From assembly GCA_022822565.1 (NCBI GenBank), contig JAJEAX010000280.1, positions 1-43,990 on the forward strand: a stretch of 43,990 bases of DNA. Reading direction: 5' to 3'. The position numbers and the translations under genes were made by a program. The notes beneath the pieces were generated by a model, which did not search any database, was not told the origin of the DNA, and saw only the letters and a list, made by a program, of their open reading frames with translations. Origin of the DNA: Candidatus Latescibacterota bacterium (GTDB lineage Bacteria > Latescibacterota > UBA2968). Shown in pieces: positions 33,594 through 43,292 of the stretch (its first letter is position 1; every line of letters starts with the position of its first letter).

Positions 33594-33714
33594 GGTACAT
33601 ATCTTTCACGACATCATTGCCGCCATTGACGATTTGCAACGCCTGAAGCAGTTGCATCGTGCGGCGGTCCAGGTCTCCAGTCTTGAGGCATTTGAGCAAG
33701 CGTTGGATACGTGA
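33592..33714 (+). pseudogene. Short orphan reading frame after the sulfatase
   Basis: Downstream of the sulfatase stop, a frame without ATG reads HDIIAAIDDLQRLKQLHRAA and continues to TGA at 33712-33714, with helix-like composition. A competing antisense ORF (505-744 of kb 33) also looks moderately protein-like. It may be the 3' remnant of a deleted gene. Very uncertain. Confidence 0.2.
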
Positions 33715-33784
33715 CGCGATTTCCTCTAAAAAACGCCCCAGCATCGTTGTGCCGAGGCATTTAATAATTAGGAAAAAAGATGCT

Positions 33785-33838
33785 GTAGGAGCGGCATCCC
33801 TGCCGCGATCAAGGTCGGGAAAGGGATTTCCCTCCTAC
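33785..33838. repeat. Cloverleaf-like intergenic repeat (REP-like)
   Basis: An outer stem GTAGGA (33785-33790) / TCCTAC (33833-33838) encloses two perfect hairpins: GCGGCA-TCCC-TGCCGC (33791-33806) and GGGAAA-GGGA-TTTCCC (33817-33832). The GTAGGAGCGGC...GCCGCGA layout resembles bacterial REP-type palindromes. Only one copy lies in the window. The remainder of 33594-33871 is without a confident gene. Confidence 0.6.
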
Positions 33839-33871
33839 GCGACTGCAAGAACCTAAATAATTACCCCCACT

Positions 33872-34087
33872 TTATTGCTCAAAACCGGTGTACACATACA
33901 TCTTATCATCAGCCTCATCAAGCACATAGAATCGGTTGTTGGCATACGTGATACCTGCCGGATTACCGTTGAAAGCATACAGATCGAAGGGCGAGGTTGG
34001 TGTGCTTGTTGTTGGCGTCCCACCACCATCGCCACCGCCCGAAGAACTGGTCTCAAACTCCGCTACGTAAATCTCATCGTCGATCAT
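33872..34087 (-). CDS. Short secreted-protein C-terminus, probably a fragment
   Basis: The 71-aa ORF starts at an ATG that overlaps the LRR protein's stop (TAATG). It has an acidic start (MIDDEIYVAEFE), a Ser/Gly/Thr linker, and a terminal beta-propeller-like unit, PAGITYANNRFYVLDEADDK followed by MYVYTG. Such units normally occur in tandem in secreted proteins, so one alone suggests the tail of a larger gene now reduced, or a piece detached from the LRR gene. It has no signal peptide. Its translation could be coupled. Confidence 0.35.
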   Translation of the reverse strand: MIDDEIYVAEFETSSSGGGDGGGTPTTSTPTSPFDLYAFNGNPAGITYANNRFYVLDEADDKMYVYTGFEQ

Positions 34088-36042
34088 TAGCGCACACTAA
34101 CCCCTCTACTCCGAAGAGTTGGAATATGCACGTTGCGTGATGTGGCACTCAGTGGGTTGTTTCTCACATCAACCCTGTCTCCACTGCCCAATCCCGTGTT
34201 TGCGACCAGAGGTGCGATATCCGAGATGCTGTTGTCGGAAAGATCCAGGTCTGTCAGGTTGGTCAAGGAAGATAGTGCAGATATATCCGAGATGCTGTTG
34301 CCGTCAAGATACAGAAAGTCCAGATTGGTCAAATTAGATAGTGCAGATATATCCGAGATGCTGTTGCCGGAAAGAGATAGAAAGTCCAAGTTGGTCAAAT
34401 TAGATAGTGCAGACACATCCGAGATGCTGTTGTCGTCAAGACTCAGACTGGTCAGACCGGTCAAGCCCGCCAGCGCAGACACATCCGAGATGCGGTTGTT
34501 GTAAAGAATCAGGTCTGTCAGGTTGGTCAAATTAGATAGTGCAGACACATCTGAGATGCTGTTGCCGGAAAGCCACAGCTCTGTCAGACTGGTCAAATTC
34601 GCATTCGCCAGCCCAGACACATCTGAGATGCTGTTGTTGGAAAGCCACAGCTCTGTCAGACTGGTCAAATTCGCATTCGCCAGCCCAGACACATCCGAAA
34701 GGCTGTTGTAGGCAAGATCTAACTCTGTCAGGCTGGTCAAATTCGCCAGTGCAGACACATCCGATATGTTGTTTTCGTAAAGATACAGCACTGTCAGACT
34801 GGTCGCAAACTCAAGCCCGGTCAAGTCGCTGATGTTTGCATCATATGCCTCAAGGCGCGTCAAGGTCGCCATCTCTGCCCTCGTAATCGCCGCACCACTC
34901 GCCTTGCCCAGACTATCCGCAATCACCGCACGCAGGTTTGCATCTGGAATGGTAACTGACGTACTGCCGCCATCACTGCTATCACCGCCGCAGTTGACAA
35001 CGCCCGATTTGTTCGCAATCCCCTGCAGCCACGTCTGGAACGCGGCGTCTGTCGGTGCACACAACTGCGTGTTACGCAGATCCAGCAATCTCAAGTTAGT
35101 GAGGTTGACCAAAGACGTCGGCAACTCACCCGACAAAGCGGTGTTGCTGGAAAGCTCCAGAATTTCCAGGTTGGAAAGGTTGCCGATCCAAGTCGGTATC
35201 GCGCCGCTCAACTGGTTGTCGTAAAGATACAGAAATTTCAGGTTGGAAAGGTTGCCGATCCAGGTTGGGATTGCGCCGCTCAACCGCATACTTCTGAGTT
35301 CCAGACTTTCCAGTTTCGAGAGGTTGTCAAGCTCGGCTGGCACTGAACCGCTCCACGGATTCCCCCCCAAACTCAACCAAGTCAGATTGGAAAGGCTACC
35401 GATCCAAGTCGGTATCGGTCCATTCAACCGATTATTGCTGAGTCTCAGATTTGTCAGGTTGGTGAGTTGCCTCAGCTCAGAAGGTATAGCCCCGCTTAGC
35501 TGGTTGTTGCCGAGATCGAGCTTGCTGGTCAGGTTGGTGAGTTGTCCCAGTTCGGATGGTATAGCCCCACTTAGCTGGTTGTTGTAGAGATGCAGTCTTG
35601 TAAGTTTAGACAGGTTGCCCAACGCCGAAGGTATCTGTCCACGCAATTGGTTACCGGGCAGGTACAAATCAACAACCCGTCCGTTTTCGTCGGTGGTCAC
35701 GCCGTGCCATTCGCCCAGCGGCCTGTCGCTGAGCCAGTTCGCCTTATTCGTCCAGTTCGGCCCATTCGTCGCGTTATACAGTGCCTCCAGCGCATCCCGA
35801 TCCGACGAAGAAGCTGCATTAACGGTTACGGTCACCGCCGGGGAGCAGTTGTTGTCTGTATCGCTCTCCCCGCTGACGCTCTCAACACACGCACCGTAGT
35901 AGTAGGTCTCCGCACTTGACGGCGCAGTCAAACTGAGTGACTGGACACTCCTGCCCGAAGAAGGCAGGATACCTACCGAGGAACTATCTACCTGTCTGTC
36001 GCTTGAAGATATAGTCGCATCAACAGATTGATAGTAGCGCAA
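34087..36042 (-). CDS. C-terminal half of giant LRR protein, separated by a frameshift
   Basis: This 651-aa ORF is not an independent gene. Its open frame extends upstream past its first Met to the break near 36124 and matches the CARDB repeat begun in ORF 36114..40670. From the N-terminus it holds the rest of the third CARDB module (LRYYQSVDATISSSDRQ), the cap DRDALEALYNATNGPNW, plant-type LRRs (LSGAIPSELGQLTNLT), the short LCAPTDAAFQTWLQG cap, then ANLRAVIADSLGKASG and about ten internalin-type LRRs of 22 residues (ISDVSALSNLTNLTDL). It ends RSRGVSVR. With the missing base restored the whole protein is 2194 aa. Confidence 0.8.
   Translation of the reverse strand: MRYYQSVDATISSSDRQVDSSSVGILPSSGRSVQSLSLTAPSSAETYYYGACVESVSGESDTDNNCSPAVTVTVNAASSSDRDALEALYNATNGPNWTNKANWLSDRPLGEWHGVTTDENGRVVDLYLPGNQLRGQIPSALGNLSKLTRLHLYNNQLSGAIPSELGQLTNLTSKLDLGNNQLSGAIPSELRQLTNLTNLRLSNNRLNGPIPTWIGSLSNLTWLSLGGNPWSGSVPAELDNLSKLESLELRSMRLSGAIPTWIGNLSNLKFLYLYDNQLSGAIPTWIGNLSNLEILELSSNTALSGELPTSLVNLTNLRLLDLRNTQLCAPTDAAFQTWLQGIANKSGVVNCGGDSSDGGSTSVTIPDANLRAVIADSLGKASGAAITRAEMATLTRLEAYDANISDLTGLEFATSLTVLYLYENNISDVSALANLTSLTELDLAYNSLSDVSGLANANLTSLTELWLSNNSISDVSGLANANLTSLTELWLSGNSISDVSALSNLTNLTDLILYNNRISDVSALAGLTGLTSLSLDDNSISDVSALSNLTNLDFLSLSGNSISDISALSNLTNLDFLYLDGNSISDISALSSLTNLTDLDLSDNSISDIAPLVANTGLGSGDRVDVRNNPLSATSRNVHIPTLRSRGVSVR
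34190..35610 (-). repeat. LRR-coding tandem repeats, C-terminal half
   Basis: Direct repeats of about 66 nt (34190-34830, SDVSALSNLTNL type) and about 72 nt (35100-35610, LSGAIPSELG type) encode leucine-rich repeats. They are in-frame coding repeats on the minus strand. Confidence 0.9.
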
Positions 36043-36113
36043 GGTCGTTGCAGGGGCTTGCCCATTGCCCTGATTGCGGACGGTTGCCTGAAGGGTGAAG
36101 GATTGTCCCGCCG

Positions 36114-39100
36114 TCAGGGTGTTACGTTTACCGAAGGGGATTCCACGATCGGGTCTGGACTGCCACCGCTACCGCTACGCCCTGAAGTATCCAGCGCGAT
36201 GCCGAATGGACCACGCAAGCCCGTAACGAGGTCTTCAACATTGGTACCATCCAGGTTAGACCGCTGAACCTTGCCTGCCTCACTGTCCGACCAATACATC
36301 TTCTTGGTACCCACATCCAGCGCAATGCCCACTGGATCACGCAATCCTGTGGTAACGAGGTCTTCAACATTGGTACCATCCAGGTTAGACCGCTGAATCT
36401 TGTCACTGTTCGTCCAGTACATCTTGTCGCTATTCACATCCAGCGCGATGCCAAATGGACCACGCAAGCCCGTAACGAGGTCTTCAACATTGGTACCATC
36501 CAGGTTAGACCGCTGAACCTTGCCTGCCTCACTGTCCGACCAATACATCTTCTTGGCACCCACATCCAGTGCAATGTTACCTGGCCAGTTCAATCCCGTA
36601 ACGAGGTCTTCCACGCCGCTCCCGTCCAGATTCGACCGCTGAATCTTGCTCGGCCCCGTGTCCGTCCAATAGATCTTGCCGCTGCCTACATCCAGTGCAA
36701 TGCTACTTGGCCAGTTCAATCCCGTAACGAGGTCTTCCACGCCGCTCCCGTCCAGATTCGACCGCTGAATCTTGCTCGGCCCCGGATCCAACAAATTCGA
36801 CCAATAGATCTTGCCGCTGCCTACATCCAGCGCAATGCCGCTTGGCCAGATCAATCCCGAGACAAGGTCTTCCACGCCGCTCCCGTCCAGATTCGACCGC
36901 TGAATCTTGCCCGCATTCCAATCCGTCCAGTAGATCTTTGGCGTTCCGCTGCCACTACTGACCGTGACCTGCACCGCAGGCGAGCAGTTGTTATTCGTAT
37001 TCGATTCGCCAGAGACAGACGCAACACACGCACCGTAGTAGTAGGTCCCCGCACTTGACGGCGCAGTCAAACTGATCGATTCATCATTGGTCATGGAAGC
37101 GGCAAGGCCATCCACCGCGTCCGTGCCAACTTCTGTATCACCGGTCGAAATCGTCGCGTCTGACGAGCGATAGTAGCGCAAGGTCGTAGAGGCCGATGCG
37201 CTACCACCCTGATTGCGAACCGTAGCACTCAGCGTGAAGGATTGCCCGACAGTCAGACTGCTGTTGCTCACCGAAGGCGACTCAACCACCAAATCCGGTC
37301 CGGTCTCCACCGTCACCCGAATCCCATCCGAGCAGTTGTTGTCGGTATCGCTCTCCCCGCTGACGCTCTCAACACACGCACCGTAATAGTAGGTCCCCGC
37401 ACTCGACGGCGCAGTCAAACTGATCGATTCAGCACTGGTCCTGGAAGCGGCAAGATCATCCACCGCGTCTGTGCCGACTTCTGTATCGGTTGTAGAGATC
37501 GTCGCGTCTGACGAGCGGTAGTAGCGCAAGGTCGTTGCAGCGGATTGCCTACTGCCCTGATTGCGGACCGTAGCACTCAGCGTGAAGGATTGTCCTGTTG
37601 TCAGGGTGTTATCGTTTACCGAAGGGGATTCCACGATCAGGTCTGGACTGCCACAGTTGACAACGCCCGATTTGCTCGCAATCCCCTGTAGCCACGTCTG
37701 GAACGCGGCGTCCATCGGCGCGCATAACCCCGTGTTCTGCATCGACAGGGTTGTGAGATTGTTCAGACCGGTGAATGAACCGGGCAACGGGCCGGAAAGA
37801 CCGGCGTTGCCGTTAAGATACAGCTCTTGCAGGTTTGTGAGGTTGCCCAGCCAAGATGGAATACCGCCCGTCAAATCGTTGGCGCCAAGCCACAGCTCTT
37901 GCAGGTTAGTGAGGTTGCCCAACTCGACAGGGATACTACCCGACAATTCGTTGGCGTAAAGAGCCAGCCGTGTCAGGTTTGTGAGGCTGCCCAGCCAAGA
38001 TGGAATACCGCCCGTCAAATCGTTGGCGCCAAGAGACAGAGCTGTCAGGTTCGTCAGGTTGCCCAACTCAGAGGGGATACCACCCGACAATTCGTTGAAG
38101 GAAAGATCCAGCACTGTCAGGTTAGTGAGGCTGCCCAACTCGGTAGGGATACCACCCGACAACTCGTTCTGGTAAAGAACCAGCCATTGCAGGTTTGTGA
38201 GGTTGCCCAACTCAGCAGGGATACGACCCGTCAATTCGTTGAAGGAAAGATCCAGCCGTGTCAGGTTGGTCAGGCTACCCAACTCAGCAGGGATACGACC
38301 CGACAACGGGTTGTTCCTAAGCCACAGCACTTCCAAGTTAGTGAGGTTGCCCAACTCGGATGGGATACCACCCGTCAAATCGTTGCCTTGAAGCCACAGT
38401 TCTGTCAGGTTGGCGAGGCTGCCCAGTTCTGACGGGATGCTGCCAGATAATCCGTTGCCGATAAAGTAGTAACCGCCGCTTGCACGTGTATCTACACCGA
38501 CCGTGTCACCGTCGCCGGTTGCGATGGCGTAAAGGCGTAATTGTGTCACCCGTCCACTGGCGTCGGCTGTCACGCCATACCATTCATTCAGCGGTCGATC
38601 ACTCAACCAGTTCGTCTTGAAACGCCAGTTCGGCCCATCCGTCGCGTTGTACAGTGCCACCAGCGCATCCCGATCCGACGCTGGCACGTCGCCGCAGTTG
38701 ACAACGCCCCGTTTGTTCGCAATCCCCTGCAGCCACGTCTGGAACGCGGCGTCCGTCGGCGCGCACAAACCCGTGCCATCCATATGTAGGAGTTCGAGAG
38801 CGTCCAGACCGGTGAATGAACCGGGCAACGGGCCGGAGAGACTGGCGTTGGCGAAAAGATACAGCTCTGTCAGGTTAGTGAGGTTGCCCAACTCGGCGGG
38901 GATACTGCCAGACAATTGGTTGCGGTCAAGAGCCAGCCCTATCAGGTTGGAGAGGCTACCCAATTCGGAGGGGATACCACCCGACAACGCGTTGTTCCTG
39001 AGCCACAGTACTTCCAGGTTAGTGAGGTTGCCCAACTCGACAGGGATACTACCAGACAAATCGTTGCCGTTAAGAGCCAGCCCTGTCAGGTTTGTGAGGC

Positions 39101-40670
39101 TGCCCAACTCGGAGGGGATACCACCCGACAACGCGTTGTTCCTGAGCCATAGCCGTGTCAGGTTTGTGAGGCTGCCCAACTCGGAGGGGATACCACCCGA
39201 CAACTCGTTGCCGTTAAGAGACAGCTCTGTCAGGTTAGTGAGGCTGCCCAACTCGGATGGGATACTGCCCGACAACTGGTTGCCATGAAGCCCCAGCACT
39301 TCCAGGTTGGTCAGGTTGCCCAACTCGGTAGGAATACGACCCGACAATGCGTTGTTGAAAAGATGCAGCACTTCCAGGTTTGTGAGGTTGCCCAGCCAAG
39401 ATGGAATACCGCCCGTCAAATCGTTGGCACCAAGATTCAGCCATGTCAAGTTGGTCAAGTTAGACAGCGCAGACACATCTGAGAGGCGGTTAAAGGAAAG
39501 ACTCAACGTTCTCAGGTTGGTCAGGCCGGATAGCGGCGAGAGGTCGGATATTTCGTTACTATTAACCAACCCCCCAGACACAGACACTGCACCAAGTACC
39601 AATCTTGTCAGACCAGTTGCATGCTCAAGCCCGGTCAAATCGCTGATGTTCGAGTTCGGTGCCGCAAGGCGCGTCAAGGTCGCCATCTCTGCCCTCGTGA
39701 TCGCCGCCCCCCTCGCCTTGCCCAGACTATCCGCAATCACCGCACGCAGGTTCGCATCCGGAATGTCAACTGCCGTTGCACTGCCACCACCGCCACCACC
39801 GCCAGGAGGCGTAGAGACATCTTTGCCATAGCTGATGCTAAAGATCAGAAAATCGCCAAAGCCTATCGCGCCATCGCTGTCTAAGTCATACTTCGTTTCA
39901 TATCTCCCATCGCTCTGACGGGCCCCATACTGACCCGCAAACACCAAAAAGTCGGAAAAATCGACCTTCCCATCGCGGTTAAAGTCCGGTGTGAGGACCT
40001 GTAACTGTAACTTTAACTCAACCCGCACATCCAGGGTCATACTTTGGAGTTGCCCACTTCGACCAAGCTCCGCACGCACCAACCGAATCACTGTGCCCGA
40101 AAACCCTCCTGTTGTGCGAAAGCGAACTGTGCCAACCAAACCACTGTTGGCTGTTGCTTGACCACCTAAAGACGCGATGCCTATTTCGACAAAACCTGTA
40201 CCTTGCGATGGCAGGGCCTGGGCATTGGGCAGCACATCGCCAGCAGCAAAACCGTCGTAAGTCACCTGACCGGCATCGTATTCAAAGCGCACTGAAAGAC
40301 CATTTGCATTGCGAATATCTTGCCCAAAGATCTGAATAGCGACCATCTCATCGGTGGATACATTGGCTGAGGTAACTGACTGATCACCTGCGCTACCATC
40401 CACATCCAGTGATAGAGAAAAGCTATTCTGCGCTGAACGGCCGGAATTAAACGACAGAGGCATCGCCGCTGTATTGCCATCATTCATTTTATTGTCGCTG
40501 GCATCAATGTCAACTGACACAACAGCATTGGCATTGGGACCTGCAGAGGCTTGACCTGCAAAGACCAGCAATGTCAGAATGATCAATAACAGATTTTGGA
40601 AAAAGGAGAACAGAGAGGCAAAGCCGGACAGTGCCAACGGTTGCTTCAATGTTGGGATGTGGTGTATCAT
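36114..40670 (-). CDS. N-terminal part of giant secreted cohesin/dockerin-LRR-CARDB-propeller protein
   Basis: The 1518-aa ORF starts at ATG 40670. Signal peptide 1-43 (cleavage after ASA). Residues 44-225 are a cohesin-like beta domain. Two EF-hand-like dockerin motifs follow at about 228-282 (DFNRDGKVDFSDFLVFAGQY; DLDSDGAIGFGDFLIF), then a Gly-rich linker. Internalin-type and then plant-type LRRs (LSGGIPSELGSLTNLT) fill 300-1000, with LCAPTDAAFQTWLQG caps. Two CARDB domains start near 1007 and 1124 (PDLIVESPSV). Six LDL-receptor YWTD-type repeats form 1241-1500 (GKIYWTDTGPSKIQRSNLDG). A third CARDB has begun when one missing base ends the frame at 36114. Probably a surface adhesin or scaffold; partner unknown. 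Confidence 0.88.
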   Translation of the reverse strand: MIHHIPTLKQPLALSGFASLFSFFQNLLLIILTLLVFAGQASAGPNANAVVSVDIDASDNKMNDGNTAAMPLSFNSGRSAQNSFSLSLDVDGSAGDQSVTSANVSTDEMVAIQIFGQDIRNANGLSVRFEYDAGQVTYDGFAAGDVLPNAQALPSQGTGFVEIGIASLGGQATANSGLVGTVRFRTTGGFSGTVIRLVRAELGRSGQLQSMTLDVRVELKLQLQVLTPDFNRDGKVDFSDFLVFAGQYGARQSDGRYETKYDLDSDGAIGFGDFLIFSISYGKDVSTPPGGGGGGGSATAVDIPDANLRAVIADSLGKARGAAITRAEMATLTRLAAPNSNISDLTGLEHATGLTRLVLGAVSVSGGLVNSNEISDLSPLSGLTNLRTLSLSFNRLSDVSALSNLTNLTWLNLGANDLTGGIPSWLGNLTNLEVLHLFNNALSGRIPTELGNLTNLEVLGLHGNQLSGSIPSELGSLTNLTELSLNGNELSGGIPSELGSLTNLTRLWLRNNALSGGIPSELGSLTNLTGLALNGNDLSGSIPVELGNLTNLEVLWLRNNALSGGIPSELGSLSNLIGLALDRNQLSGSIPAELGNLTNLTELYLFANASLSGPLPGSFTGLDALELLHMDGTGLCAPTDAAFQTWLQGIANKRGVVNCGDVPASDRDALVALYNATDGPNWRFKTNWLSDRPLNEWYGVTADASGRVTQLRLYAIATGDGDTVGVDTRASGGYYFIGNGLSGSIPSELGSLANLTELWLQGNDLTGGIPSELGNLTNLEVLWLRNNPLSGRIPAELGSLTNLTRLDLSFNELTGRIPAELGNLTNLQWLVLYQNELSGGIPTELGSLTNLTVLDLSFNELSGGIPSELGNLTNLTALSLGANDLTGGIPSWLGSLTNLTRLALYANELSGSIPVELGNLTNLQELWLGANDLTGGIPSWLGNLTNLQELYLNGNAGLSGPLPGSFTGLNNLTTLSMQNTGLCAPMDAAFQTWLQGIASKSGVVNCGSPDLIVESPSVNDNTLTTGQSFTLSATVRNQGSRQSAATTLRYYRSSDATISTTDTEVGTDAVDDLAASRTSAESISLTAPSSAGTYYYGACVESVSGESDTDNNCSDGIRVTVETGPDLVVESPSVSNSSLTVGQSFTLSATVRNQGGSASASTTLRYYRSSDATISTGDTEVGTDAVDGLAASMTNDESISLTAPSSAGTYYYGACVASVSGESNTNNNCSPAVQVTVSSGSGTPKIYWTDWNAGKIQRSNLDGSGVEDLVSGLIWPSGIALDVGSGKIYWSNLLDPGPSKIQRSNLDGSGVEDLVTGLNWPSSIALDVGSGKIYWTDTGPSKIQRSNLDGSGVEDLVTGLNWPGNIALDVGAKKMYWSDSEAGKVQRSNLDGTNVEDLVTGLRGPFGIALDVNSDKMYWTNSDKIQRSNLDGTNVEDLVTTGLRDPVGIALDVGTKKMYWSDSEAGKVQRSNLDGTNVEDLVTGLRGPFGIALDTSGRSGSGGSPDPIVESPSVNVTP
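36170..36950 (-). repeat. Six YWTD propeller-blade repeats
   Basis: Six tandem units of 120-129 nt each encode one blade (YWSDSEAGKVQRSNLDGTNV type). Blades 4-6 include a near-identical duplication with a 249-nt period: the segments starting near 36222 and 36471 differ by very few bases across more than 100 nt. Confidence 0.9.
37790..39480 (-). repeat. LRR-coding tandem repeats, N-terminal half
   Basis: About twenty in-frame 72-nt repeats in two blocks (37790-38440 and 38810-39480) encode 24-residue LRRs of the form LTNLTELSLNGNELSGGIPS. They are separated by a cap with DRDALVALYNATDGPNW. Confidence 0.9.
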
Positions 40671-40719
40671 CTTCTGTTTCCACCCTTGGTTTTGAGGTTC
40701 TGGTGTTTGAGATTGTGAA

Positions 40720-40746
40720 AGAGAGCAGGCGATCGCCTGTCTCTCT
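40720..40746 (-). terminator. Long hairpin between the two secreted-protein genes
   Basis: AGAGAG-CAGGCG (40720-40731) pairs with CGCCTG-T-CTCTCT (40734-40746) with one bulged base around a GATC-type centre. On the minus strand it lies between the RDT-repeat gene and the LRR gene; only TTTCAC follows, so termination may be weak. A second small hairpin, ACTCGA-CTTGCA-TCGAGT, is at 40830-40847. Nothing else seen in 40671-40876. Confidence 0.45.
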
Positions 40747-40876
40747 CCTTTACTCGTTCAGATTTTATTTTTTAATCAGATCAGCCCGTTGCTTTTCTCC
40801 GATTGGCATAGGGCGCATCAAGTACTCGTACTCGACTTGCATCGAGTCTTCTATTTGTCTCAAGTTTTTCAATTTT

Positions 40877-42274
40877 CTACAAATCCGATTGGTCTAAACG
40901 TGCTTTTAGTCTATCGTGGGCGTCTATAATTTCTTGTGGAATTGCACCTACCTTACGCCCCTGGTCAGCAAGCTCAGGTGGGATAGCTAATTTAGGAGCG
41001 TGAACGTCAAAACCCTCGCCTTGTGTGCGGCCACTATTAGAGGTAAGATTATATACACTCCCTTGATTGATCGACTCGCCTTTGTCATAGAAATACATAA
41101 TGCCCACTGCCTTGTCGCCTTGAATATCAAAGACAAAGAAGCCATTATAGCTACTGTTGCTCTCCAAAATTGTGTACTGGCTTAACCCTTTGCTATAACC
41201 GCCAAGAATCCTACGCCCCCAATCATCACCCCCCCATACAGGCAGTTCCCCGTCGTTAAACGCCTGGTCAGAGATATATCCCAAAATGTAATAGTAATCT
41301 AATACGCTGCTGCCTGATAGCCCAGCGATCAGCTTCCAAAATCCCAATAAATTTCTGGCGCGTTCTTCTTGCGGGGTCGCGCTACCCACTGTGATGGTGT
41401 CACGAATGGTATTCTGAACCGTAATCGTATCACGAATAGTATTCTGAACCGTGATGGTGTCGCGGATGGTGACGGTATTCTGGAGGGTGATGGTATCACG
41501 GATGGTATTTTGGACGGTGATCGTATCACGGACAACATCGCGGAGAATAACCGTATCCCGAACAGTATTTTGAACTGTAATGGTGTCACGGGCGGTAATC
41601 GTAACCGTATCACGGACAGTAACCTGAACAACGCGCACAACAGGTTGTGGCGGTGTCGGTGCTGGCCCTGTCCGCCCAAAATTGTCCACGAACAGCAGAA
41701 AGTCGGTGAAATTAACATTGCCATCAAGGTTCAGATCACCGGGGAAAGGTTTTATCGTGTTGGTAAAAAGAACAGTGCTTGTCGATGTGATGACATCAGA
41801 GGATGTAGCAGTTTCGGCCAACACGACGCTTTGGAGACCGATGAAAAAATCTCGACCCGTCACATCTGCTATTGTTGTAAACGTCGCTTGCCCCAAAAAA
41901 CCCGATGGTGGCAAAGAAACAGGCACAGGCGAGGCAAGGTTCGCCCCTGTTGACTCTGGAATCACAAAGGCAAACGCGCTATTTTCAACGCTGACAAAAG
42001 ACACCAGGGACGTGTCAAAATCAAATATGATTGACATCCCTGAAAGTGGTGTGGTGACACCTTTTGCAAACACTTCAACAACAATAGTCGCGCCTTGGCC
42101 AGAAACAGTACCCGAGATAACACCATCATCTACCTGATTGCCTTGTCCGCCAGCAGGCACAAGGTCGAGAGTAATGGTGGCATTGATATTCGCGCCAGCA
42201 TGAACCTGAGAAATAAATACTACACCAGCAAACAACAGACAGAAAAGCACAGCACAGATAAACTTTTTCAACAT
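40877..42274 (-). CDS. Secreted cohesin/dockerin-like protein with RDT-repeat stalk
   Basis: The 465-aa protein starts at ATG 42274, 6 nt after GGGAGG. Signal peptide MLKKFICAVLFCLLFAGVVF through VHA. A cohesin-like beta domain spans about 27-175 (SGMSIIFDFDTSLVSFVSVE), then one EF-hand/dockerin-like motif at about 180-200 (GDLNLDGNVNFTDFLLFVDN). Next comes a 90-residue tandem repeat of RDTITVQNTI type, rich in Thr/Val/Ile and alternating, likely an extended beta stalk. The unrecognised C-terminal domain (about 310-465) contains LLGFWKLIAGLSG and YNGFFVFDIQGDKAVGIMYF, reminiscent of lipocalin-like folds. Neighbour of the LRR protein with a similar N-terminal half. Confidence 0.8.
   Translation of the reverse strand: MLKKFICAVLFCLLFAGVVFISQVHAGANINATITLDLVPAGGQGNQVDDGVISGTVSGQGATIVVEVFAKGVTTPLSGMSIIFDFDTSLVSFVSVENSAFAFVIPESTGANLASPVPVSLPPSGFLGQATFTTIADVTGRDFFIGLQSVVLAETATSSDVITSTSTVLFTNTIKPFPGDLNLDGNVNFTDFLLFVDNFGRTGPAPTPPQPVVRVVQVTVRDTVTITARDTITVQNTVRDTVILRDVVRDTITVQNTIRDTITLQNTVTIRDTITVQNTIRDTITVQNTIRDTITVGSATPQEERARNLLGFWKLIAGLSGSSVLDYYYILGYISDQAFNDGELPVWGGDDWGRRILGGYSKGLSQYTILESNSSYNGFFVFDIQGDKAVGIMYFYDKGESINQGSVYNLTSNSGRTQGEGFDVHAPKLAIPPELADQGRKVGAIPQEIIDAHDRLKARLDQSDL
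41385..41635 (-). repeat. About 30-nt coding repeats (RDTITVQNT)
   Basis: Eight or nine degenerate tandem units of about 30 nt, with an insertion in the middle, encode the RDTITVQNTI stalk of the gene 40877..42274. The phase is in frame, so this is a protein repeat. Confidence 0.9.
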
Positions 42275-42298
42275 CTTTCCCTCCCTGACAATTAAGAA

Positions 42299-42628
42299 TT
42301 AAAAAACCTGCTCCACAAGCATCCAGAAAAACGCCAGAACCCCCACGAATACCAAAGCTGGTTGTATTAGTGGAATTATCGCCATCGCTATTATAGACAA
42401 CAGCACTATTACAGATATAGACAACAGCAACATTGGCCATGTCCCGGATACTTCTTTCCCGCGTGAAACACTCATCACAAGTGCCCACACCCATCCGATA
42501 AATGTCCAACCGAGAAAGAGGTTGATGACAAAAACCTTGCCCAAATCACTGTGCTTGCGAATAGCTGCAACAATGACCGGCACAAAATACAGAAAGACAA
42601 AAAACAAAAGCCCTACCAACTCGCCCAT
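42299..42628 (-). CDS. Superinfection immunity-type small membrane protein
   Basis: The 109-aa protein starts at ATG 42628 behind AGGAGA at 6-nt spacing. Three to four membrane segments are visible. The core VPVIVAAIRKHSDLGKVFVI with NLFLGWTFIGWVWALVMSV matches the Imm_superinfect family (PF14373, named after phage T4 Imm), which has the motif R-x4-x-I-x2-LN-x2-LGWT-x-IGW. Most bacterial members have no tested role. It ends 24 nt before the RDT-repeat gene start, so the two may be co-transcribed. The second half is more hydrophobic than the family core. Confidence 0.75.
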   Translation of the reverse strand: MGELVGLLFFVFLYFVPVIVAAIRKHSDLGKVFVINLFLGWTFIGWVWALVMSVSRGKEVSGTWPMLLLSISVIVLLSIIAMAIIPLIQPALVFVGVLAFFWMLVEQVF

Positions 42629-42645
42629 CTAATTTCTCCTAAACA

Positions 42646-42918
42646 GTGGGATTCGCTTATTCTAAACAAGGACGAAAACGAGATACAAGATGGTTCGGCT
42701 ATAAGGTGCATATGACTGAAACGTGTGAGAAAAATCAACCCAACCTGGTGATCCACGTAGAAACACGGTCAGCACCTCAAGATGATCAGAGCTTTGACAT
42801 CACCCATTTTCATTTTGATTGGAAAAACAAAAAAACCGTGCCAGTACATAACTCAGGAGAAAAAATGCAACTTGATTTTGTGGTTTTGGCGTTTTACATT
42901 GTGAAACAGAGCGGGTGA
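42646..42918 (+). pseudogene. IS1182-like transposase remnant
   Basis: The 90-aa ORF contains RWFGYKVHMTETCEKNQPNL, then VIHVETRSAPQDDQSFD. This matches the conserved WxGYKVHLTETC...THVETTxA block in the middle of IS1182-family transposases, as I recall that family. The preceding N-terminal and following catalytic parts are absent, and the sequence after residue 50 no longer fits, so it is a decayed fragment. No terminal repeats identified. Confidence 0.65.
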
Positions 42919-42921
42919 CGG

Positions 42922-42949
42922 TTTACAAGGCCGTTCCTATCTCTATTTT
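42922..42949 (+). promoter_or_regulatory. Possible promoter of the structured RNA region
   Basis: TTTACA (42922-42927), a 16-nt spacer, then TATTTT (42944-42949). The predicted start site would be at about 42956, at the base of the first hairpin of the RNA candidate. Confidence 0.3.
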
Positions 42950-42950
42950 T

Positions 42951-43211
42951 TGCGGCGAAGGGCCACAAGGCTCTCCAACCCAGACAGCCCTTCGCCGTTC
43001 ACACAGGCGCAATTAACGCACGCCTGCGGTTTATTCATTCAAATTACCCTTTGACAACGTTTGATATTTACCACCCAAATAATATCTCCAAACGGAGATT
43101 GTCAAGAGTTTTTACCATATAAAATAAAACGCTACCCGGTTGTAAAGTAAACAACCGATACCCATGTCCCGATATTCACCCCAACCGCCCAACACAACGG
43201 GCGGTTTTTTT
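42951..43211 (+). ncRNA. Candidate structured RNA ending in an intrinsic terminator
   Basis: The 370-nt space before the TPR gene has no convincing CDS but is rich in stems. P1: CGGCGAAGGGC (42953-42963) with GCCCTTCGCCG (42987-42997), 11 bp perfect. P2: CAGGCG/CGCCTG (43004-43009/43021-43026). P3: TTGACAA-CGTTTG (43051-43063) with CAAACG-gaga-TTGTCAA (43089-43105), 13 bp with a 4-nt bulge; an alternative ATCTCC/GGAGAT hairpin (43084-43099) excludes it. P4: CGGTTGT/ACAACCG (43137-43157). P5: the terminator. It could be a free small RNA or a 5' leader of the TPR gene. I match it to no known RNA class. Confidence 0.4.
43183..43211 (+). terminator. Intrinsic terminator upstream of the TPR gene
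   Basis: AACCGCCC (43183-43190) and GGGCGGTT (43199-43206) form a perfect 8-bp stem with an 8-nt loop, ending in a T7 run (43205-43211). It points along the plus strand, 81 nt before the TPR gene start. Confidence 0.88.
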
Positions 43212-43292
43212 GTGTCTTTTGAGGCAACTTCTATGCATCTTAGCGGTTAAAATAGAAATACCCCATTCCCCCCCCATACGAGGAGACGCCAA

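Follow-up and report, generated by a model that had tools for sequence, protein, structure and literature searches.

A dispersed, covarying RNA element of one Latescibacterota genus and its possible antisense action on divergent genes

The DNA analysed here (the window) is a 43,990-nt stretch that forms part of the 4.6-Mb draft genome of a Latescibacterota bacterium. Near its right end, positions 42922 to 43211 fold into several stems between a superinfection-immunity gene and a TPR gene. The question is what these stems belong to. A preliminary description read them as one RNA of five stems with a mutually exclusive fold, its own promoter and its own terminator, either a small RNA or a switch-like leader of the TPR gene.

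Extent, fold and distribution of the element

The stems are present, and 42922-43211 as a whole is more stable than 100 out of 100 dinucleotide shuffles (z -4.4). The single unit did not hold, as the region is made of three unrelated parts and conservation among copies ends at about 43036. What recurs is 42863-43036, found again by a DNA search of relatives at unlinked sites of genomes of the same genus. Within this segment, 42905-43036 is more stable than 200 of 200 shuffles (z -3.7) and forms three hairpins (Table 1). The 11-bp perfect stem noted earlier is 42953-42963/42987-42997, within hairpin 2. The promoter first proposed, TTTACA-16-TATTTT (42922-42949), falls inside hairpin 1 and is at chance level (1 found, 1.6 expected in shuffles); the conserved promoter is a different one, TTGATT-17-TACATT.

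Thirteen copies were aligned to build a covariance model, R1. Run against the 11 genomes of the genus, it gave 34 true-strand copies; nine genomes have 1 to 8 each, and G004 and G010 have none. In this count the weakest included copy has 27.5 bits, reverse-strand echoes of palindromes are excluded and a copy at a contig end (G002:C57) is left out. Searches of further genera, at the level of family, order, class and phylum, gave no convincing match; the only one reached 22.5 bits (E 0.028).

The fold is supported by compensatory base changes. The unfitted alignment has both-side changes at 6 pairs, compared with 3.0 in shuffles (2 of 500 reach 6), and in 18 cells, compared with 6.3; in a larger alignment, fitted to the model, they occur at 21 of 32 pairs against 11.4 (0 of 500), and such comparisons overstate independence because the copies are related. 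Changes from C-G to U-A in hairpin 1 and from A-U to G-C in hairpin 2 are recurrent in different subfamilies.

In terms of known families, Rfam 15 gave nothing at gathering score in the window, and a permissive scan listed only STnc450, at chance level (16.6 of 37 bits, about 43170-43215). Nine other copies had no Rfam family over the element, and the hairpin-1 pattern had no match in viral contigs. The database records in which the RNA pattern does occur are metagenome assemblies of Latescibacterota. A literature search found no noncoding-RNA study for the phylum Latescibacterota. The new structured RNA, or small RNA, that had been suspected is borne out: the family is recurrent and covarying, its promoter is conserved, most copies have a predicted terminator hairpin, and no Rfam family matches at gathering score. 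Both as an RNA and in its conservation, a genus-specific family that is absent from Rfam and apparently undescribed is well supported. It was found through folding and confirmed through covariation.

A mobile or amplifying repeat of MITE or REP type, with no regulatory role, would also be dispersed, and several traits fit one: the element is multi-copy, limited to one genus and part of a strain-specific insertion in the window genome, and several copies are degenerate. Against this, its ends fall at a promoter and a terminator, its orientation to neighbour genes is fixed, its pairs are maintained via compensatory change and it has no terminal inverted repeats. Furthermore, in the positional orthologues of one copy the element and its hairpins are well kept despite diverged flanking spacers. 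We consider a repeat of this kind improbable. The element resembles REP-like repeats and REPINs (PMC8049555) in being short, palindrome-rich, intergenic, multi-copy and genus-restricted, and it differs from them in the fixed gene orientation, promoter, terminator, compensatory changes and lack of terminal inverted repeats just named.

The possibility that the stems are terminal repeats of an IS relic was rejected. For the adjacent 90-aa ORF, which may resemble a transposase, neither a relative in the genus nor a Pfam match was found; the element recurs without it and contains internal hairpins only.

Table 1. Coordinates of the element, its surroundings in the window, and the copies of a second RNA in other genomes
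Feature	Position	Strand	Basis or remark
sRNA promoter (sigma-70-type), TTGATT-17-TACATT	42872..42900 (hexamers 42872-42877, 42895-42900)	+	hexamers and spacing recur in most class-1 copies
Predicted transcription start of the sRNA	about 42905-42908	+	prediction
Structured RNA, family copy (covariance model R1)	42905..43036	+	115.6 bits, E 3e-27 in the window
Hairpin 1, nested AGAG/CTCT, GGG/CCT, ACGG/CCGT	42908..42944	+	fold; compensatory pairs in other copies
Hairpin 2, 12 bp, conserved loop ACA(A/G)GG..CCAACC	42952..42998	+	fold; A-U/G-C exchanges at several pairs
Hairpin 3 (43002-43028) and T-rich tail, predicted intrinsic terminator of the family	43002..43036	+	weak T-run in the window copy
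Superinfection-immunity domain protein (PF14373), divergent neighbour and candidate cis target	42299..42628	-	Pfam 1.3e-16; 277 nt from the element
Candidate promoter TTTACT-17-TTTATT	43123..43151	-	reads into the element, toward the gene at 42628; motif common to promoters of other genes
Intrinsic terminator of the sulfatase operon in relatives, outside the RNA	43183..43211 (hairpin 43183-43206)	+	orthologous to the terminator after the sulfatase gene
Insertion of about 9.6 kb between the sulfatase gene and its terminator, carrying the element	33596..43174	.	flanks contiguous in G001, G002, G005, G007
R2 copy	G005:C20:38789-38885
R2 copy	G009:C87:3553-3649
R2 copy	G009:C240:882-978
R2 copy	G007:C1:86157-86252
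R2 copy	G008:C1:5530967-5531062
R2 copy	G005:C49:55305-55401
R2 copy	G007:C1:3454732-3454826
R2 copy	G008:C1:1103215-1103306

Surroundings of the window copy

In four relatives (Table 1), the sequence corresponding to 30.4-33.6 kb of the window, with peptidase and sulfatase genes, directly adjoins that of 43.175-43.99 kb, which contains terminator and TPR gene. A perfect terminator does lie at 43183, but by this synteny it ends the sulfatase operon and is not the RNA's own; the RNA arrived with the insertion, and the terminator hairpin of the family is hairpin 3. On its minus strand, the insertion also has genes for LRR, dockerin-like and superinfection-immunity proteins.

As for the TPR gene, the element lies on its strand, with the TPR start 257 nt downstream, which is the arrangement of a switch-like leader or attenuator. 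The TPR orthologues of the genus keep the terminator and the 5' region, with the sulfatase gene where the window has the RNA. Since terminator and TPR gene adjoin the sulfatase gene there, the TPR gene of the relatives is regulated without the RNA. With an operon terminator between the two, and no TPR gene after other copies, control of the TPR gene by the element is hardly credible, and that part of the preliminary description was abandoned.

The mutually exclusive fold exists, as the ATCTCC/GGAGAT hairpin (43084-43099) excludes an overlapping TTGACAACGTTTG/CAAACG..TTGTCAA stem. These stems (about 43050-43107) lie in the third part of the region, 43037-43174, outside the conserved element. 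Further right, 43134-43174 matches a different dispersed motif, GGTTGTTTACTTTnCnACTGGGTTTGGATATATT, which is found on the opposite strand upstream of unrelated genes in the genus (L010, L025, L026, L029, L030) and is likely a promoter. This likeness makes it plausible that a promoter on the minus strand reads into the element.

Our preferred explanation, with an even chance of being right, treats 42905-43036 as a seemingly intact member of a dispersed family of small RNA genes. A terminator scan of the window listed none at hairpin 3. With its weak T-run, and with the divergent gene at some distance (Table 1) behind an intervening ORF fragment, function is less certain for this copy than for the family.

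Two other observations concern the DNA to the left of the element. A weak R1 match (14.6 bits, 40719-40771) just upstream of the LRR gene 36114-40670 is possibly a degenerate copy, with only the promoter and hairpin 1 kept. The minus-strand ORF 40877-42274 contains, at 41390-41640, a row of short units that are nearly identical to one another (variants of 'accgtgatggtgtcacgg').

Orientation, strand and putative antisense action

An upstream neighbour gene could be scored for 31 copies, and in every case it is encoded on the strand opposite to the RNA. These genes belong to 15 protein clusters, and their distance to the element is mostly 34-378 nt, where single values may be off as genes were called with a simple ORF script. 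They encode LRR, ankyrin, WD40, outer-membrane-like, lyase, sigma-54 activator and unknown proteins. A crude test placed a strongly hydrophobic segment close to the N-terminus in 19 of the 31 proteins, and the products are often exported proteins. Downstream neighbours are mixed (22 on the opposite strand, 10 on the same), which makes the divergent gene the fixed partner. An orientation always directed away from the start of the neighbour gene suggests silencing by pairing with messages.

The same strict orientation (31/31) fits another explanation, in which the element acts on the opposite strand only, where it provides the divergent genes with a structured, cis-regulatory leader, and the plus-strand promoter is incidental or minor. 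Several features point instead to the plus strand. Directly before the RNA, most class-1 copies have TTGAYT-16/17-TA[CG]ATT, that is, a -35 and a -10 at fixed spacing with a spacer sequence free to change. In the plus direction, hairpin 3 is followed by a T-run. Several copies (L114, L131, L130) have this combination in good form; in the window copy it is weak, and several have lost it. Outside the window, several copies have 6-7 T at the end. For three class-1 orthologues, the plus strand gives the more stable fold, by 11 kcal/mol. Wobble cells (60 G-U vs 47 A-C) do not settle the matter, and the mean energy difference from strand to strand, near 0, is not decisive either. From the promoter and terminator sequences we infer plus-strand transcription, with termination at hairpin 3.

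Under the model that we prefer, RNA polymerase with the housekeeping sigma factor would start at the predicted position (Table 1), and the RNA would form two hairpins and end at the third, the terminator hairpin. Since the DNA of the element stands in front of a gene on the opposite strand, this RNA is antisense to any leader read through the element. It would pair with such leaders in cis and, because the copies are similar, in trans too, and would repress the gene by pairing next to the ribosome-binding site. The cis target in the window would be the superinfection-immunity gene, provided that its promoter lies to the right of the element.

Minus-strand sigma-70 promoters beyond hairpin 3 of class-1 copies have a mean of 8.8, where the other strand gives 8.2 and shuffles give 7.8. 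This is barely above chance, so overlap with a target transcript, by readthrough of its leader, is seen by sequence in the sigma-54 subset only.

A working analogue is found in Bacteroides, where DonS is described as belonging to a family of 78-128-nt cis-antisense RNAs that are divergent to, and negatively affect, susC homologues (PMC7366714). The element shares with DonS a similar size (about 125-135 nt), the position divergent to its putative targets and the many copies per genome. In part, links to glycan use are shared as well, through a polysaccharide lyase 8 gene behind a sigma-54 promoter and through propeller-sensor sigma-54 activators. On the other hand, the genes beside the element are not susC homologues but a diverse set, often for exported proteins; the element also serves in reverse as a sigma-54 mRNA leader; and it comes from another phylum. 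DonS may be regarded as its closest working analogue, with no claim of membership. The best explanation of the family, which we place midway between doubt and acceptance, is an antisense sRNA, transcribed with sigma-70, that targets the leaders of divergent genes in a DonS-like way. If so, copying of one short element can bring a large set of unrelated genes under a single RNA, a sigma-54 regulon among them.

A second structured RNA, described by the 97-nt model R2, has 8 strong copies (Table 1) and resembles c4-2 (RF02944, C4 antisense RNA clan) below the gathering score. It raises the possibility of a C4-type antisense pair, in which this convergent, c4-2-like RNA beside some copies pairs with the hairpin-2 loop. 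Seven of the 8 strong copies are found 40-250 nt past an element and point toward it, and AGCCUGUGGC in the c4-like RNA matches the complement of the loop. Whole-molecule pairing is no better than in shuffles, however, and own pairs are no better than foreign ones. The second RNA reaches at most 33.3 bits, against a gathering score of 41, and stands beside only 7 of the 34 elements, with none beside the window copy; the element itself has no c4 match. Such a pair is very unlikely to explain the family.

Reversed copies behind sigma-54 promoters

The plus-strand promoter is missing in 7 copies. Five of these, in five genomes and before different genes, share one arrangement. Their other strand carries a palindrome that resembles an activator site, then a perfect sigma-54 promoter, then the element and an SD touching hairpin 1. 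With a sigma-54 promoter before it and the SD of a gene at hairpin 1, the reverse strand of these five copies is really a 5' UTR. Exact sigma-54 sites near copies number 8, against about 0.1 expected. As one block before unrelated genes of five genomes, sigma-54 promoter, element and SD also fit action on the opposite strand only. Set against the plus-strand promoter, terminator and folding energies above, an exclusive role as leader is nevertheless rather unlikely.

In G001, G002 and G003, an sRNA-type copy precedes the gene for a propeller-sensor sigma-54 activator, and a leader-type copy is found in the same genome. The sRNA-type and leader-type copies of one genome are 85-88% identical over about 100 nt, and this identity in reversed orientation makes sRNA and leader complementary as RNA. 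A wider, tentative reading, to which we lend less than even credence, is that one element is used in both directions, as a sigma-70 sRNA in some copies and as a sigma-54 leader with an activator site in others. The two would be complementary by descent and form an antisense network that spreads as the element is copied. In three genomes, an sRNA-type copy stands at the activator gene itself.

Lastly, palindromic ATATATCGCGATATT-like sites were observed upstream of perfect sigma-54 promoters in the flanks of four copies (L123 8433, L125 1122, L128 4946, L132 4985), and these palindromes are a candidate activator site.
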